Shown here piece after piece: positions 15,189 through 19,753 of a stretch of DNA of 64,000 nt (positions are counted from its first letter, which is position 1; every line of letters begins with the position of its first letter). The translations under genes were made by a program, and so were the position numbers. Source of the DNA: Methylophaga sp. (lineage in GTDB: Bacteria; Pseudomonadota; Gammaproteobacteria; Nitrosococcales; Methylophagaceae); assembly GCA_024636315.1 (NCBI GenBank), contig JAGXHJ010000032.1, positions 1 through 64,000 of the forward strand, given 5' to 3'. The notes under the pieces are model-generated. The model was not told the DNA's origin. It was given only the letters and a program-made list of their open reading frames with translations, and did not search any database.

Positions 15189-15797
15189 TTAATGTTTTAT
15201 GGCAGTGCTTTTAGCGTATCGATAGACACGTGGAGCCAATAATATAATTAGCAAACCCATATATATCAGGGGTTCCTGCTTATCGAGTTTCACCAACATA
15301 TAAAAATGTATCGAACTGGCAATAGCAATAAAATACGTTAGTCGATGCAGTTGCTTCCAACGCCGCCCTCCCATTCGTTTAACCATCGCATTATTAGAGG
15401 TAATAACTAATGGAATTAAGGCCGTAAAGCTGAAAAAACCGATAGTAATAAAGGGCCGCTTGATTATATCTTTGATAATTTCATTAATATCAAAAAACTG
15501 ATCTAGTCCTAAGTAAAGCAACATATGTAACACCGCATAAAAAAACACATACAGGCCCAATAGTCGTCGATACCTTACTAAATCATTCCAGCCCGTTAGC
15601 CAACGCAGTGGCGTAATTAATAAGGTTAGCCATAAAAAGCGCAAGGCCCAAAGGCCGGTTTCTCGCGTTACCGCCTCAATCGGATTAGCGCCGAGTTGAT
15701 TGGTCAAAACAGCAATGGTCAACCAGATAGCCGGAATTAAACATACGATAAATAACAGGGTTTTTATTTTTGACACAATATTTAACTCAGGCGGCAT
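15189..15797 (-). CDS. msrQ: MsrQ, heme-binding membrane subunit of periplasmic methionine sulfoxide reductase
   Basis: 202 residues with about six hydrophobic helices of the ferric-reductase-like (YedZ) family. Conserved motifs include LRWLTGWNDLVRYRRLLGL near 60-80, a His-containing helix (FYAVLHMLLYL) and RRWKQLHRLTYF near 143-154, which provide heme ligands. It passes electrons from the quinone pool or flavin to MsrP in the periplasm. The start lies 6 bp after the msrP stop, the standard msrP-msrQ arrangement. Confidence 0.94.
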   Translation of the reverse strand: MPPELNIVSKIKTLLFIVCLIPAIWLTIAVLTNQLGANPIEAVTRETGLWALRFLWLTLLITPLRWLTGWNDLVRYRRLLGLYVFFYAVLHMLLYLGLDQFFDINEIIKDIIKRPFITIGFFSFTALIPLVITSNNAMVKRMGGRRWKQLHRLTYFIAIASSIHFYMLVKLDKQEPLIYMGLLIILLAPRVYRYAKSTAIKH

Positions 15798-15803
15798 GGT
15801 CCA

Positions 15804-16763
15804 TTAAAAATATTTACGTAAATCCATTCCGGTATACATATGAGCGACTTCCTCACCATAACCATTAAAAATTTCAGTTTTACGTTTGAGAAACTCGCCA
15901 ATTCGACGTTCACGACTTTGACTCCAACGCGGATGATCAACGTCAGGATTAACATTAGAATAAAAGCCATATTCATTAGGACCTGCTTTCATCCATGCCG
16001 ATTGGGGTAAGCTTTCAACAAAACGAATGCGTACTATAGATTTAATGCTCTTAAAACCATATTTCCATGGCACAACTAACCTTATCGGCGCGCCATTTTG
16101 ACCCAACAACTCTTGTCCATATAAACCAACCGAAAGCAATGTTAATGGATTCATCGCTTCATCCATTCGCAAACCTTCAGTATAGGGCCAATCTAATACA
16201 TTTCGATTCTGTCCGGGCATTTGTTCAGGATCGAATAGCGTCGTAAATTCGACAAATTTTGCTCGTGAATTAGGTTGGGCACGTTTAATAAGGTCCGCTA
16301 AAGGAAACCCCACCCACGGTATCACCATCGACCAGCCTTCCACACATCGCAAGCGGTAAATACGTTCTTCCAAGGTAAAGGGTCTAATTAAATCGTCATA
16401 ATCATATTCGCCTGGCTTATCGCACTCGCCATCAATTCTGACGCGCCAAGGTTTACTTTTATCAGGAAACTTAGTTGCCATTAATGCAGGCGAACCTTTA
16501 TCAGTGCCAAATTCATAAAAATTATTATAGGTAGTCACTGATTCAAAGGGCGTTGAGCTATCATCCGTTGAGTAGGCACTTTTAATCAAACCTTTATAAG
16601 TCGGTTCAGGTACAGAAGCTGCACTCGCCAATGATATGGGCAATAAACTACCGGTGGCCGCTATTGCAGCACCATTCAAAAACTGCCGACGATTCAAATA
16701 AACACTGTAATCGGTTACCTCACTCGCCGGTAATTCACCTAGTCTTGTTTTCTTAAATAACAT
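15804..16763 (-). CDS. msrP: MsrP, periplasmic molybdopterin methionine sulfoxide reductase catalytic subunit
   Basis: 319 residues with a twin-arginine signal ([10 protein letters not shown] at 25-26, then a hydrophobic stretch to about 48), so it is exported folded with its cofactor. The molybdenum-ligating Cys is in [11 protein letters not shown] (about residue 140). The remainder matches the YedY family. It repairs oxidised methionine in envelope proteins, for example after hypochlorous-acid damage. It lies 29 bp downstream of the DoxX/HvfX-like gene and is probably co-transcribed with it, linking envelope redox repair to the ECF-sigma-associated locus upstream. Confidence 0.96.
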
Positions 16764-16792: not shown

Positions 16793-17377
16793 TTATTTTG
16801 AACAGTTAGCGTATTTTTTAGCAATCCAATAATCAGCACTGAAATAATTACCTGCACCAATGAAAAATAACGTGAGCAACATAATGAAATAAGTAGTCGC
16901 AAATTCAATGCCGTTATTTAATATCACAAAACTACCGTTTTGTGTCAGCCAGTCATAATTACCATGTTCTTGCAAGATAGAACGCGCCATGTCTAACTGA
17001 GCACTAGGTTCTGCGATAGCTAGCCAACCATTTCCCCAGTGAACGGTCACTGCAGCAACTATCATCGTTATCATTAATGGAATACTAATCCAACGTACAG
17101 CTAGACCCAGCACTAAAAAAATCGCGCCAAAATATTCCGCTCCCCAAGCTAAATAAGCCATTAGTTCAGGATATGGCAACCCCAAAGATCCTTCAAACCA
17201 TTGGATCGTGCCACTCAATGAGCTTTCACTATCAAAAGGATTCCACTTATTATTAGCGGCCATCCAAAATACAGGTGCTAGATATAACCTTAGCGCTAAG
17301 GGAGCTAAAAAATCTAATACTTTGGTCTTATCCAATATTGCTTGTAGACCAGATGTTAAATTACAAACTGACATCAC
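16793..17377 (-). CDS. DoxX/HvfX-like membrane protein associated with HvfA-type peptides
   Basis: 194 residues with about four hydrophobic helices. The first carries LRLYLAPVFWMAANNKWNPF, and later helices include PELMAYLAWGAEYFGAIFLVLGLAVRWISIPL. This matches DoxX proteins found beside copper-binding RiPP precursors (HvfX/HvfD-type). A sound ribosome-binding site (AAGGAG) precedes the start; ATG codons at positions 1 and 2 are both possible. It lies immediately after a strong terminator that separates it from the upstream hvfA-like gene, so it is probably expressed by partial readthrough. A decayed copy of its first 46 codons is present at 18163-18303. Confidence 0.8.
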   Translation of the reverse strand: MMSVCNLTSGLQAILDKTKVLDFLAPLALRLYLAPVFWMAANNKWNPFDSESSLSGTIQWFEGSLGLPYPELMAYLAWGAEYFGAIFLVLGLAVRWISIPLMITMIVAAVTVHWGNGWLAIAEPSAQLDMARSILQEHGNYDWLTQNGSFVILNNGIEFATTYFIMLLTLFFIGAGNYFSADYWIAKKYANCSK

Positions 17378-17392
17378 TTACTCCTTTTAAAT

Positions 17393-17418
17393 AAAAAAGG
17401 GCTCCGCGGAGCCCTTTT
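17393..17418 (-). terminator. Strong intra-operon terminator between the first hvfA-like gene and doxX
   Basis: A perfect palindrome (AAAAGGGCTCCG/CGGAGCCCTTTT, 17395-17418) followed on the minus strand by TTATTT forms a GC-rich hairpin with a U-tract. It is 28 bp past the hvfA-like stop and 16 bp before the doxX start, so it probably makes the small peptide gene far more abundant in RNA than the genes behind it. Confidence 0.85.
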
Positions 17419-17445
17419 CGTCAGATATGGCTCGAAATAACTGTG

Positions 17446-17865
17446 TTATTTCTTAGCGCCACATGTGCCTTCTTCCATTTTTTCTTTCATTTCAGCACCA
17501 CATTTAGCTTCTTTTGCAGCTTTCATGGCATCTTCCTTAGCTGCACCACATGTAGCTTCATGAGCCGCTTTCATTGCCGCTTTTTTCTCTGCACCACATT
17601 TGGCTTCGCCACATTTACCTTCTTTTGTAGCCTTGTGAGCATCAGTCGCTTCTTTGTTTGCGCCACATTTTGCTTCAGCGTCTGTTTTAGCTTCTTTATT
17701 AGCACCACAAGTACCTTCTGCAAGCTGCATATAACCGCTAGATAATTCAGCAGATGCAAAAGGGTTAGTATCTGCACTTGCCATCATTGGCGATAGAGCC
17801 AAACCTGCTGACAATGCTGCGCTAGCGGCTAATGCGATCGTTGTTTTTTTAGTAGTAATAGACAT
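17446..17865 (-). CDS. HvfA-like Cys-Gly repeat peptide (putative copper-binding RiPP precursor), copy 1
   Basis: 139 residues: signal peptide (1-31, cleaved at ASA/D), a leader-like segment (NPFASAELSSGYMQLAE), then a low-complexity Lys/Glu/Ala tail with seven Cys-Gly pairs (Cys 53, 67, 85, 90, 106, 122, 135). EGKCGEAKCG at 82-91 is close to the EGKCG repeat of HvfA-family precursors, whose cysteines are converted to thio-oxazole/oxazolone-thioamide copper ligands by an MNIO enzyme (HvfB) with HvfC. Neither enzyme is encoded in the window, so modification is inferred, not shown. ECF-type promoter and hairpin leader lie upstream, a strong terminator downstream. Copy 2 is at 18373-18792. Confidence 0.8.
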   Translation of the reverse strand: MSITTKKTTIALAASAALSAGLALSPMMASADTNPFASAELSSGYMQLAEGTCGANKEAKTDAEAKCGANKEATDAHKATKEGKCGEAKCGAEKKAAMKAAHEATCGAAKEDAMKAAKEAKCGAEMKEKMEEGTCGAKK

Positions 17866-17910
17866 AATAATTTCCTATAGTGTTATAAATATTGTGAAAT
17901 AATGAAACTC

Positions 17911-17934
17911 AAGCGGTCAATCATGACCAAGCTT
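17911..17934 (-). promoter_or_regulatory. Leader hairpin/operator of hvfA-like copy 1
   Basis: AAGC-GGTCA-ATCA-TGACC-AA-GCTT is an imperfect inverted repeat placed at the predicted 5' end of the transcript. The same element occurs unchanged ahead of copy 2 (18837-18860). It could be a 5'-stabilising RNA hairpin or a regulator site. Confidence 0.45.
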
Positions 17935-17939
17935 GTTAA

Positions 17940-17968
17940 CATAGACTGGCATCAAACTATTTTGTTAC
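17940..17968 (-). promoter_or_regulatory. ECF-type promoter of hvfA-like copy 1
   Basis: On the minus strand GTAAC (17964-17968), a 17-bp spacer and GTCTATG (17940-17946) have the form of an extracytoplasmic-function sigma promoter (AAC-containing -35, GTCT-type -10). It is retained in the second copy with the same spacing, although the sigma-gene reading frame that overlaps it has decayed here. Confidence 0.5.
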
Positions 17969-17975
17969 AAGCTTC

Positions 17976-18119
17976 ATGAAAATAAATTCAGATAACATAA
18001 ATGAGAAGGCGCTCATTACTATTTTATCAATGGTAAAGCCTTTGCTGATGAAGTGGTTCAAGAGACCTGAGTTTCAACTATTCGCATTGCCAAAGTTTGA
18101 AGGTCGCTCGTCAATCTAT
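17976..18119 (+). pseudogene. Decayed 5' fragment of the ECF sigma factor gene
   Basis: This stretch matches the first part of the intact sigma gene (18903-19130): the ATGAAAATAAATTCAG block, then TTTGCTGATGAAGT and TTTGAAGG(T/C)CGCTC. An internal deletion of roughly 80 bp joins the start to the region 2 coding part, the preferred ATG has become ATA, and frameshifts and stops follow. Homology ends near 18120, where doxX-related sequence begins on the other strand. It is a product of the tandem duplication described under findings and is not expected to make protein. Confidence 0.8.
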
Positions 18120-18125
18120 ATTGCC

Positions 18126-18303
18126 GAACCAGTCAATTGCCACGTTTCATGAACTGTCCGCATCAAAGGGAGTTCCATTTATTATTTGAAGACATCCAAA
18201 ATACGGCTACCAAATAATGACTTATGCCAATGGCGCTAAAAAGTCTAGCACTCTCGTGTTGTCCAGCATTGCTTAGGGCTATCGGTAATTTACAATCTGA
18301 CAT
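18126..18303 (-). pseudogene. Decayed 5' fragment of the doxX/hvfX gene
   Basis: From the ATG at 18303 the frame reads MSDCKLPIALSN..., then VAVFWMSSNNKWN, and stops with TGA at 18163. The intact gene reads MSVCNLTSGLQ... APVFWMAANNKWNPF in the same places. Nucleotide similarity continues to about 18126, the duplication junction with the sigma-gene fragment. Everything beyond the first membrane helix is missing, so a functional protein is very unlikely. Confidence 0.8.
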
Positions 18304-18321
18304 AGCTCTCTGCTTTTAAAT

Positions 18322-18347
18322 AAAAAGGACTCCGAAGAGCCCTTTTT
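18322..18347 (-). terminator. Terminator after hvfA-like copy 2
   Basis: On the minus strand the arms GGGCTC and GAGTCC (one G-U pair) close a TTCG tetraloop and are followed by TTTTTATTT. It is the duplicated counterpart of the terminator at 17393-17418, mutated yet still well formed. Confidence 0.75.
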
Positions 18348-18372
18348 ATCAGGCATTGCCAGTATTGGCGTC

Positions 18373-18792
18373 TTATTTTTTAATTCCAGTACTGCCTTCT
18401 TCCATGTCTTTTTTCATTTCGGCACCGCATTTAGCTTCTTTTGCAGCTTTTTTCTCAGCACCACATTTTCCTTCACCATCTTTACCTTCTGTTACTGACT
18501 TTTGAAGCTCAGTCGCTCCTTCATCAGCTCCACCTGTAGCTTGATCTTCTGTCATCATTTCAGTATCTTCAACAGTACCATTTTCGTCACCTGTCACGTT
18601 CTTTTGATGCTCAGTCGCTCCTTCATCAGCTCCACCTGTAGCTTCTGCAAGCTGCATATAACCACTTGATAATGCAGTAGATGCAAAAGGGTTAGTATCT
18701 GCATTTATCATCATTGGCGACAAAGCCAAACCTGCTGACAATGCTGCACTAGCTGTTAATGCGATCGTTGTTTTTTTAATAGTAATAGACAT
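18373..18792 (-). CDS. HvfA-like peptide copy 2, cysteine-depleted paralogue
   Basis: 139 residues, the same length as copy 1, with near-identical signal peptide and leader (MSITIKKTTIAL..., SSGYMQLAE). The tail has diverged: only two Cys-Gly pairs remain (Cys 110 in EGKCG, Cys 122 in AKCG). Other motifs now read ATGG (52-54 and 87-88 region), GKDG (103-106) and STGI (134-137). A new acidic repeat, ADEGATE(H/L)QK(N/S)VT, occurs twice (55-67 and 89-101). The frame is open and its promoter, leader hairpin and terminator are retained, so it is probably expressed. It may be an evolving paralogue with a changed or reduced metal-binding role. Confidence 0.75.
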   Translation of the reverse strand: MSITIKKTTIALTASAALSAGLALSPMMINADTNPFASTALSSGYMQLAEATGGADEGATEHQKNVTGDENGTVEDTEMMTEDQATGGADEGATELQKSVTEGKDGEGKCGAEKKAAKEAKCGAEMKKDMEEGSTGIKK

Positions 18793-18836
18793 AATAATTT
18801 CCTTAGTGTTATATATATTGTGAAATAATAAAACTC

Positions 18837-18860
18837 AAGCGGTCAATCATGACCAAGCTT
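18837..18860 (-). promoter_or_regulatory. Leader hairpin/operator of hvfA-like copy 2
   Basis: Identical in sequence to the element at 17911-17934: GGTCA/TGACC arms around ATCA, extended by AAGC/GCTT with a two-base bulge. It begins where transcription from the adjacent ECF-type promoter should start. Confidence 0.45.
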
Positions 18861-18866
18861 GTTATC

Positions 18867-18895
18867 TATAGACAGGCATCAAACTATTTTGTTAC
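18867..18895 (-). promoter_or_regulatory. ECF-type promoter of hvfA-like copy 2
   Basis: Minus-strand GTAAC (18891-18895), 17-bp spacer, GTCTATA (18867-18873). It is conserved with copy 1 and divergent from the sigma gene, so the adjacent sigma factor is the natural candidate to use it. Confidence 0.5.
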
Positions 18896-18923
18896 CAACT
18901 TCATGAAAATAAATTCAGCTAAC

Positions 18924-19508
18924 ATGGATGAAAAGATTCTAATCACCGATCTTATTAATGGTGATGAAAAAGCTTTTGAATTGATTGTTTCAAACTACCA
19001 TAACCTGATGCTATCGGTTGCTCGCGCTATTGTCGGCGAAGCTTTTGCTGATGAAGTCGTTCAGGATGCTTGGATTTCTGCCATTAAGGCCTTGCCAAAA
19101 TTTGAAGGCCGCTCATCACTCAAGACATGGTTACTTCATATAGTGAGCAATGGCGCTAAAAGTCGGGTACGTAGAGAAAATCGAATGATTTCACTTGATG
19201 ATGGCTGGCAGGCTGTTTCGTCTGACAAGTTTGATAACACCGGCCACCGAATAGATGATGTGTTAACTTGGGAAGAAGCCACACCCGAGGCGCTATTGGC
19301 CAATGAACAGCTGCAAGCTGCCATTGAAAAAACCTTCCAAGCGCTTCCTCCTTTACAACGTGCGGCGCTAACGATGTATGACATGGAAGGTTTAAAAATG
19401 GAAGAAGTTTGTAACATTCTTGACATCTCTGCGTCTAATGCACGGGTGTTACTACATCGAGCTCGCACAGGTTTACACCAGTGTATCGATAAATTTCAGG
19501 ATAAATAA
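18924..19508 (+). CDS. ECF-family RNA polymerase sigma factor
   Basis: About 194 residues from MDEKILITDLING. Region 2 (AFELIVSNYHNLMLSVARAI ... DEVVQDAWISAIKALPKFEG) and region 4 (LPPLQRAALTMYDMEGLKMEEVCNILDISASNARVLLHRAR, helix-turn-helix) are intact. In-frame ATGs at 18903 and 18849 would lengthen it, but no start has a good ribosome-binding site; 18924 gives the usual ECF N-terminus, and the upstream segment overlaps the divergent promoter. An anti-sigma gene follows after 5 bp. Sigma factors beside HvfA/bufferin loci are known to control them in response to metals, so this one probably drives the hvfA-like genes. Confidence 0.92.
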   Translation: MDEKILITDLINGDEKAFELIVSNYHNLMLSVARAIVGEAFADEVVQDAWISAIKALPKFEGRSSLKTWLLHIVSNGAKSRVRRENRMISLDDGWQAVSSDKFDNTGHRIDDVLTWEEATPEALLANEQLQAAIEKTFQALPPLQRAALTMYDMEGLKMEEVCNILDISASNARVLLHRARTGLHQCIDKFQDK

Positions 19509-19513
19509 GTAAG

Positions 19514-19753
19514 ATGATTCAGTGTAAAGACCTAACAGAAGAAGCCAGTGACTACCTAGATGGTGATCTACCACTACGTAAACGCATTGCGCTGTTTGTT
19601 CATCTAGTAATTTGTCGCTGTTGCCGTAATTACCTTCAACAAATCCGCAGCACGATTAAGACGGTTAAAGTGCTACAGCCTAAAGAAAAAGAGACCATTG
19701 ATACCCAAGCTTTGGCGCACAAACTACATGCGCTTAGTTGTAAGCACGACTAA
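19514..19753 (+). CDS. Zinc-finger anti-sigma factor
   Basis: 79 residues. The N-terminal half has the anti-sigma zinc-binding pattern: an upstream Cys (IQCKDLTEEASDYLDGDLP) and HLVICRCC (H-x3-C-x2-C), as in ZAS/HC2 proteins that hold ECF factors. There is no membrane helix, so it is a soluble anti-sigma that may sense metal or redox state through its thiols. It is preceded by AAGTAAG and starts 5 bp after the sigma stop. Its stop overlaps by 4 bp the stop of the convergent DUF1244 gene. Confidence 0.85.
   Translation: MIQCKDLTEEASDYLDGDLPLRKRIALFVHLVICRCCRNYLQQIRSTIKTVKVLQPKEKETIDTQALAHKLHALSCKHD

Follow-up and report, generated by a model that had tools for sequence, protein, structure and literature searches.

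Tandem duplication of an hvfA locus in Methylophaga and the fate of its cysteine-poor second copy

Why should two genes for HvfA-type peptides lie next to each other with broken pieces of their neighbours between them? This question is raised by a locus of Methylophaga sp., a marine methylotroph, on contig JAGXHJ010000032.1, within a stretch of 64,000 nucleotides that is referred to here as the window. The first-pass annotation of this DNA had proposed a tandem duplication of a locus consisting of hvfA, a doxX-type gene (hvfX) and a gene for an extracytoplasmic function (ECF) sigma factor, after which selection would have kept two peptide genes for the sake of dosage or diversification. Based on the present data, the duplication is confirmed. 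The second peptide gene, hvfA2, is in our judgement probably a paralog under relaxed constraint, depleted of cysteines and in the course of being lost, which may for a time have served as an acidic peptide. For the comparisons below, the window genome is designated G000, Methylophaga sp. HyVt-379 is G005, and the closest relative of the window genome is G006.

A duplicated unit and its junction

The following features make up the locus:

16793-17374, minus strand: intact hvfX of the DoxX family (NCBIfam NF050144 HvfX, 214 bits against a cut-off of 80; Pfam DoxX)
17446-17865, minus strand: hvfA1, 139 amino acids, seven xCG cysteines (NF050137 KCGExKCG, 39.9 bits against 19.5)
17976-18119, plus strand: sigma', a degraded copy of the 5' part of the ECF sigma gene (78% identity to sigma; ATG kept)
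18117-18137, no strand: duplication junction, between the end of sigma homology and the start of doxX homology (alignments)
18138-18303, minus strand: doxX', a decayed 5' fragment of hvfX (about 74-77% identity, five frame-disrupting indels)
18373-18792, minus strand: hvfA2, 139 amino acids, two cysteines, acidic core with net charge -10 (NF050137, 20.5 bits, just over 19.5)
18903-19508, plus strand: intact ECF sigma factor gene, 201 amino acids (Pfam Sigma70_r2 and r4_2; start as in the closest relative)
19514-19753, plus strand: zinc-finger anti-sigma factor (NF052368 antisigmaE, 55.5 bits against 50)

Two copies of about 927 bp of a unit consisting of the 5' part of hvfX, hvfA and the 5' part of sigma are located at 17209-18119 and 18138-19124. 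With blastn, 17200-18130 and 18126-19140 gave a single alignment of 865 bp with 74% identity (E = 2e-159), and a further piece of the same two halves aligned when joined across a deletion of about 75 bp in the partial sigma gene. In addition, a repeat search found families of direct repeats at the locus with a spacing of 926-932. As proposed, the order is hvfX (minus), hvfA1 (minus), sigma' (plus), followed by doxX' (minus), hvfA2 (minus), sigma (plus) and anti-sigma (plus), and this layout is the outcome expected of one tandem duplication with its ends inside hvfX and inside sigma. Because the sigma homology ends at about 18119 and the doxX homology begins at about 18130-18138, the junction was placed at about 18117-18137, close to the 18120-18126 suggested previously. 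The similarity between the two halves is extended, and none of the relatives compared has two full, independent sets of sigma and doxX genes; both results leave the duplication standing.

The fragments between the copies are clearly damaged. In sigma', the deletion noted earlier measures about 75 nt, together with frame-disrupting indels of 1, 2 and 2 nt. The first-pass annotation was mistaken in reporting a lost ATG, as the true sigma start is ATGAAAATAAATTC, at 18903 in the window ('MKINS...') and common to the closest relative; the equivalent start in sigma' is intact at 17976, and the ATG-to-ATA change falls on an internal Met. The five indels of doxX' lie within 166 bp. A 46-codon minus-strand reading frame is indeed present there (18163-18303), but it is not the single doxX frame that had been described, since DoxX sequence is encoded in this frame over some portions only. 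As to indels, the two hvfA copies differ by 60-bp in-frame events only. The pattern of indels therefore bears out the view that the redundant partial sigma and doxX copies decayed while both hvfA frames remained open.

Cysteines, charge and constraint in the second copy

Both hvfA1 and hvfA2 (the latter barely) pass the NF050137 cut-off. The 95-bit cut-off of the HvfA equivalog NF050188 was not reached (hvfA1 16.6 bits; hvfA2 no match), and a PHROGs search gave no match. The two cysteines of hvfA2 in the window genome, and the complete absence of cysteines in its HyVt-379 counterpart, compare with 5-14 in all other HvfA proteins of the family examined. Five of the seven metal-binding cysteines are thus gone from hvfA2 in the window genome and all are gone in HyVt-379, so that hvfA2 would add little or no copper-binding capacity. 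The net charge of the core is -19 in HyVt-379, and in other HvfA proteins of the family it ranges from -7 to +10. An EF-hand interpretation of the acidic repeat was considered and rejected, as hvfA2 had no Pfam match at E values up to 1.

Between the window genome and HyVt-379, the hvfA2 core has a ratio of nonsynonymous to synonymous substitution rates (dN/dS, or omega) of 1.0, with 14, 17 and 17 differences at the first, second and third codon positions. The hvfA2 leader alone was judged by such codon-position counts. The leaders of hvfA1 and hvfA2 in the window genome differ at 4/4/5 positions, and those of hvfA1 and its G006 counterpart at 0/1/7, which indicates purifying selection on the hvfA1 leader. 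Codon fits to five leader sequences, which are saturated and weak, gave an omega of 0.18 for the hvfA2 branches (p about 0.03 against 1) and a value not different from 1 for the hvfA2 of the window genome alone. The regulatory sites and the tract shared by the two copies are as follows:

17942-17969, minus strand: ECF-type promoter of hvfA1, TGTAAC-N17-GTCTA (motif upstream of almost all hvfA genes of the family)
18869-18896, minus strand: promoter of hvfA2, with the -35 changed to GGTAAC (motif comparison)
17394-17418, minus strand: terminator 1, between hvfA1 and hvfX (hairpin and T-run, -17.1 kcal/mol)
18323-18347, minus strand: terminator 2 (-12.6 kcal/mol)
17712-17992, no strand, partner at about 18639-18919: gene-conversion tract over the hvfA leader codons and promoter (identity, permutation and approximately unbiased (AU) test)

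Each hvfA gene has its own promoter and terminator, as the first-pass annotation had stated, and the second terminator is real. However, the -35 of hvfA2 is altered in both the window genome and HyVt-379, and it is invariant in every other promoter recognised; in HyVt-379 the hvfA2 promoter motif is no longer recognisable. The HyVt-379 hvfA2 is also interrupted by in-frame stops.

Over the tract, the two copies of the window genome are about 87-97% identical, compared with about 67-78% across the doxX region and portions of the 3' half of hvfA, which lie outside it; one conserved 3' stretch of hvfA, near 17472-17611, reaches 90%. Of 5000 permutations, none or almost none gave low-mismatch runs as extreme as those within the tract (P = 2e-4), and the AU test rejected the orthology topology for this segment (p = 0.025). 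These comparisons of the sequences indicate that gene conversion between the copies has made their leaders and promoters alike.

Dating of the duplication and rival explanations

The order msrQ-msrP-hvfX-hvfA / sigma-anti-sigma is conserved in nearly all loci of the family Methylophagaceae examined, and most of these genomes have one hvfA copy at the syntenic locus. The HvfA leader is present in 48 of the 57 family genomes; the acidic hvfA2 core was found only in the window genome and HyVt-379. These two hvfA2 genes have in common the acidic core, an internal repeat and a '...GIKK' end. In HyVt-379 the order is doxX, hvfA1, sigma remnant, terminator, hvfA2 and sigma, with the spacer mostly deleted. 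The closest relative, G006, has a single hvfA at the locus.

A FastTree species tree from eight flanking proteins was ((G000,G006),G005). Four-fold-site differences (Jukes-Cantor) were 0.31 for G000/G006 and 0.88 for G000/G005, that is 0.155 and 0.44 per lineage, and the branch of doxX' plus sigma' measures 0.36-0.42 substitutions per site. The fragments would accordingly have been drifting since well before G000 and G006 separated, for a time comparable to that since the separation of G000 and G005. The divergence of the fragments and the common hvfA2 core together favour one duplication before the split from HyVt-379, and thus before the G000/G006 split, followed by a loss; G006 probably lost its second copy.

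Other irregular hvfA loci were seen in the family. In G007, two hvfA genes adjoin each other on the same strand (L034, 8956-9732), in an arrangement unlike the duplication in the window, and the second lacks a recognisable ECF promoter of its own upstream. G006 has a dispersed hvfA copy on contig C1 (L031, 9918-10230) with ATT at the expected start. This copy is also frameshifted, and its end, when read in a different frame, is similar to the HvfA tail (AFM...SY) of the second G007 copy and of L090. Erosion or assembly errors may explain the locus of G018 (L023), which has no matches to hvfX, sigma and anti-sigma and an hvfA with a stop, and that of G012 (L027), where the matches to hvfX and to sigma are spread over several frames.

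In the sequence of events that we favour, an ancient tandem duplication with breakpoints in hvfX and in the divergent ECF sigma gene would have left two copies of hvfA together with two half-genes of no use. Judging from its family, hvfA1 would have remained the working HvfA precursor, transcribed by the ECF sigma/zinc-finger anti-sigma pair from TGTAAC-N17-GTCTA; the unlinked HvfBC would oxidise its cysteines, and the peptide would be exported and bind copper. The second gene would have lost its core cysteines and turned acidic before the split from HyVt-379. In the lineage of the window, gene conversion would then have homogenised its leader and promoter, after which its amino-acid sequence would have been largely unconstrained. 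It would give no extra dose of copper-binding peptide, and would have ended as an open, cysteine-poor frame in the window genome, as a truncated gene with a damaged promoter in HyVt-379 and as a deletion in G006.

A number of observations weigh against this scenario. Leader and core of hvfA2 taken jointly have an omega of 0.335, significantly below 1 (p = 0.0014). The hvfA2 of the window genome has no frameshift, although about 7 would be expected in the core at the indel rate of the fragments (P about 8e-4). Nor does it contain a stop (P about 0.04-0.05). A simulation of neutral drift explained the cysteine loss but rarely the acidity (P 0.001-0.009). The HyVt-379 counterpart of terminator 2 has preserved its stem by a paired change, with a TTCG loop in common. 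Tree tests on the fragments alone (301 sites) did not separate alternative dates, and the closest comparisons involve genomes that are metagenome bins. The open frame and the rarity of such acidity under drift imply that selection acted on hvfA2 and its frame at some stage, while its present sequence looks unconstrained. The earlier statement that selection kept two peptide genes is borne out in part, and is weakened by the dN/dS of the core, the changed -35, the stops in HyVt-379 and the single copy in G006.

Several of these observations speak for the strongest of the alternatives, namely that hvfA2 was selected to become an exported peptide, acidic and poor in cysteines but with the HvfA leader retained, and still has this role in the species of the window. 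For example, it might bind another metal by its carboxylates or compete for HvfBC. An acid shift beyond drift with an acidic core in two species, a frame kept by indels of 60 nt and other multiples of three only, the joint omega and the conserved terminator 2 are all in line with this. Moreover, the Sec signal serves HvfBC as a leader (PMC13419390), and precursors that stay unmodified may 'serve a different purpose' (PMC12452194). Neofunctionalisation of this kind nevertheless seems unlikely to us, as the core omega is 1.0, the leader of the window's hvfA2 has been unconstrained since conversion, the -35 is damaged in both species, the HyVt-379 copy is truncated and G006 has no second copy at the locus. 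A more far-reaching version, in our view doubtful, is that duplication of a copper-peptide gene gave rise to a selected acidic peptide, almost devoid of cysteines, whose retained HvfA leader still brings it to HvfBC or to the export route as a non-substrate, either as a decoy or as a carboxylate-type metal binder. Diversification, one of the two motives in the first-pass annotation, may have played a part, because the core turned more acidic than neutral drift would predict and has no frameshift.

Independent duplications in the window genome and HyVt-379, or transfer of a duplicated allele between their lineages, would dispense with a loss in G006. Such a history agrees with the way in which the two G000 copies group together by leader and promoter, with the single copy in G006 and with a fragment tree compatible with a later date. 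It is improbable, however, because the acidic core, internal repeat and GIKK end are homologous in both hvfA2 genes, the divergence of the fragments lies well above the neutral G000/G006 divergence, and the flanking genes follow the species tree. Dosage, the other proposed motive, could explain two open frames with a promoter and terminator each, but the loss of cysteines largely refutes it, and family members alter capacity by the number of repeats within one gene (5-14 Cys); we consider it very improbable. That an assembly joined two strain variants is hardly credible even for genomes that are bins, since the copies are about 25% divergent and separated by decayed partial genes, and since HyVt-379, which was binned independently, has the same order.

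Regulation, modification enzymes and related systems

Two further genes of the conserved synteny follow hvfX:

15804-16763, minus strand: msrP, downstream of hvfX (PRK05363 MsrP, 463 bits)
15189-15797, minus strand: msrQ, downstream of msrP (NF003831, 181.7 bits)

Of the 29 hvfA upstream regions compared, 24 contain TGTAAC-N17-GTCTA, including those of hvfA1 in the window genome and HyVt-379 and of the single hvfA of G006. The outgroup loci L104 and L105 have a variant -10, GTCTC. A stricter form of the motif has a single occurrence in each of four genomes, in every case before hvfA, and a similar hairpin terminator follows most hvfA genes of the family. The looser pattern TGTAAC-N17-GTCAT lies upstream of hvfB in G000, G005, G006 and G007, and is also found elsewhere, with controls that were not zero. 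The common pattern suggests that the sigma factor may control both hvfA and hvfBC. This regulon becomes testable through the candidate ECF promoter, which is almost invariant before hvfA in Methylophagaceae, and through the similar site that precedes the unlinked hvfBC. In Pseudomonas sp. BMS12 (L107), a related sigma/anti-sigma pair adjoins an hvfA-like gene, with doxX further on, which suggests that the link to this regulator may be older than Methylophagaceae.

The window genome carries hvfB on contig C93 (PF05114 match), and the downstream gene of 252 amino acids was read as hvfC from its order and sequence rather than by a profile. In the stretches inspected in G000, G005 and G006, no hvfA lies beside hvfB; on the hvfB side of the pair, the G000 contig extends for a further 1.3 kb / 0.3 kb or so before its end. 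The pair (L074, 5796-7386 in G000; L075, L076, L078) is located near genes resembling those for 2-keto-3-deoxy-6-phosphogluconate (KDPG) aldolase and 6-phosphogluconate dehydratase, and with its upstream TGTAAC-N17-GTCAT it possibly belongs to the same sigma regulon. On contig C54 of G007 (L077, 5460-7820), a second gene for a multinuclear non-heme iron-dependent oxidase (MNIO) follows two small Cys-rich genes with signal-peptide-like starts and resembles a bufferin-type cluster.

HvfBC converts cysteines of HvfA to copper-binding 5-thiooxazoles and prefers a substrate with the Sec signal (PMC13419390). The HvfA, or oxazolin (Buf_EGKCG), of nontypeable Haemophilus influenzae and its relatives (PMC13419390, PMC12452194) is matched here by the N-terminus of hvfA1, which resembles a Sec-type signal by appearance and is followed by the repeated xCG cysteines, by the adjoining hvfX, and by the hvfB and hvfC-like genes of the window genome. 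In contrast to that system, hvfBC is unlinked, the regulator is an ECF sigma factor with a zinc-finger anti-sigma factor, and hvfA2 is mostly without cysteines. EGKCG precursors bind copper, perhaps stochastically (PMC13097082). The fontiphorin FonA has similar EGKCG-type repeats, with seven modification sites compared with the seven Cys of HvfA1; it comes from another taxon, and the passages of that study considered here describe no duplication.

Bufferins sequester periplasmic copper; some genomes encode several precursors but a single enzyme pair, and MsrP/MsrQ-type genes occur in a few clusters of the HvfA/oxazolin kind (PMC12452194). The locus in the window is a readable case of duplication of a gene for a ribosomal copper-binding peptide, with its breakpoints visible, in which one copy retains the metal-binding residues and the other has lost them, and in which leader and promoter were homogenised by gene conversion. 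Like bufferin clusters with tandem precursors, it has more than one precursor gene for one MNIO/partner pair. That study leaves open whether all extra precursors are modified (PMC12452194). Unlike those precursors, the extra one described here lacks most of the target residues, and the decayed fragments beside it reveal its origin.

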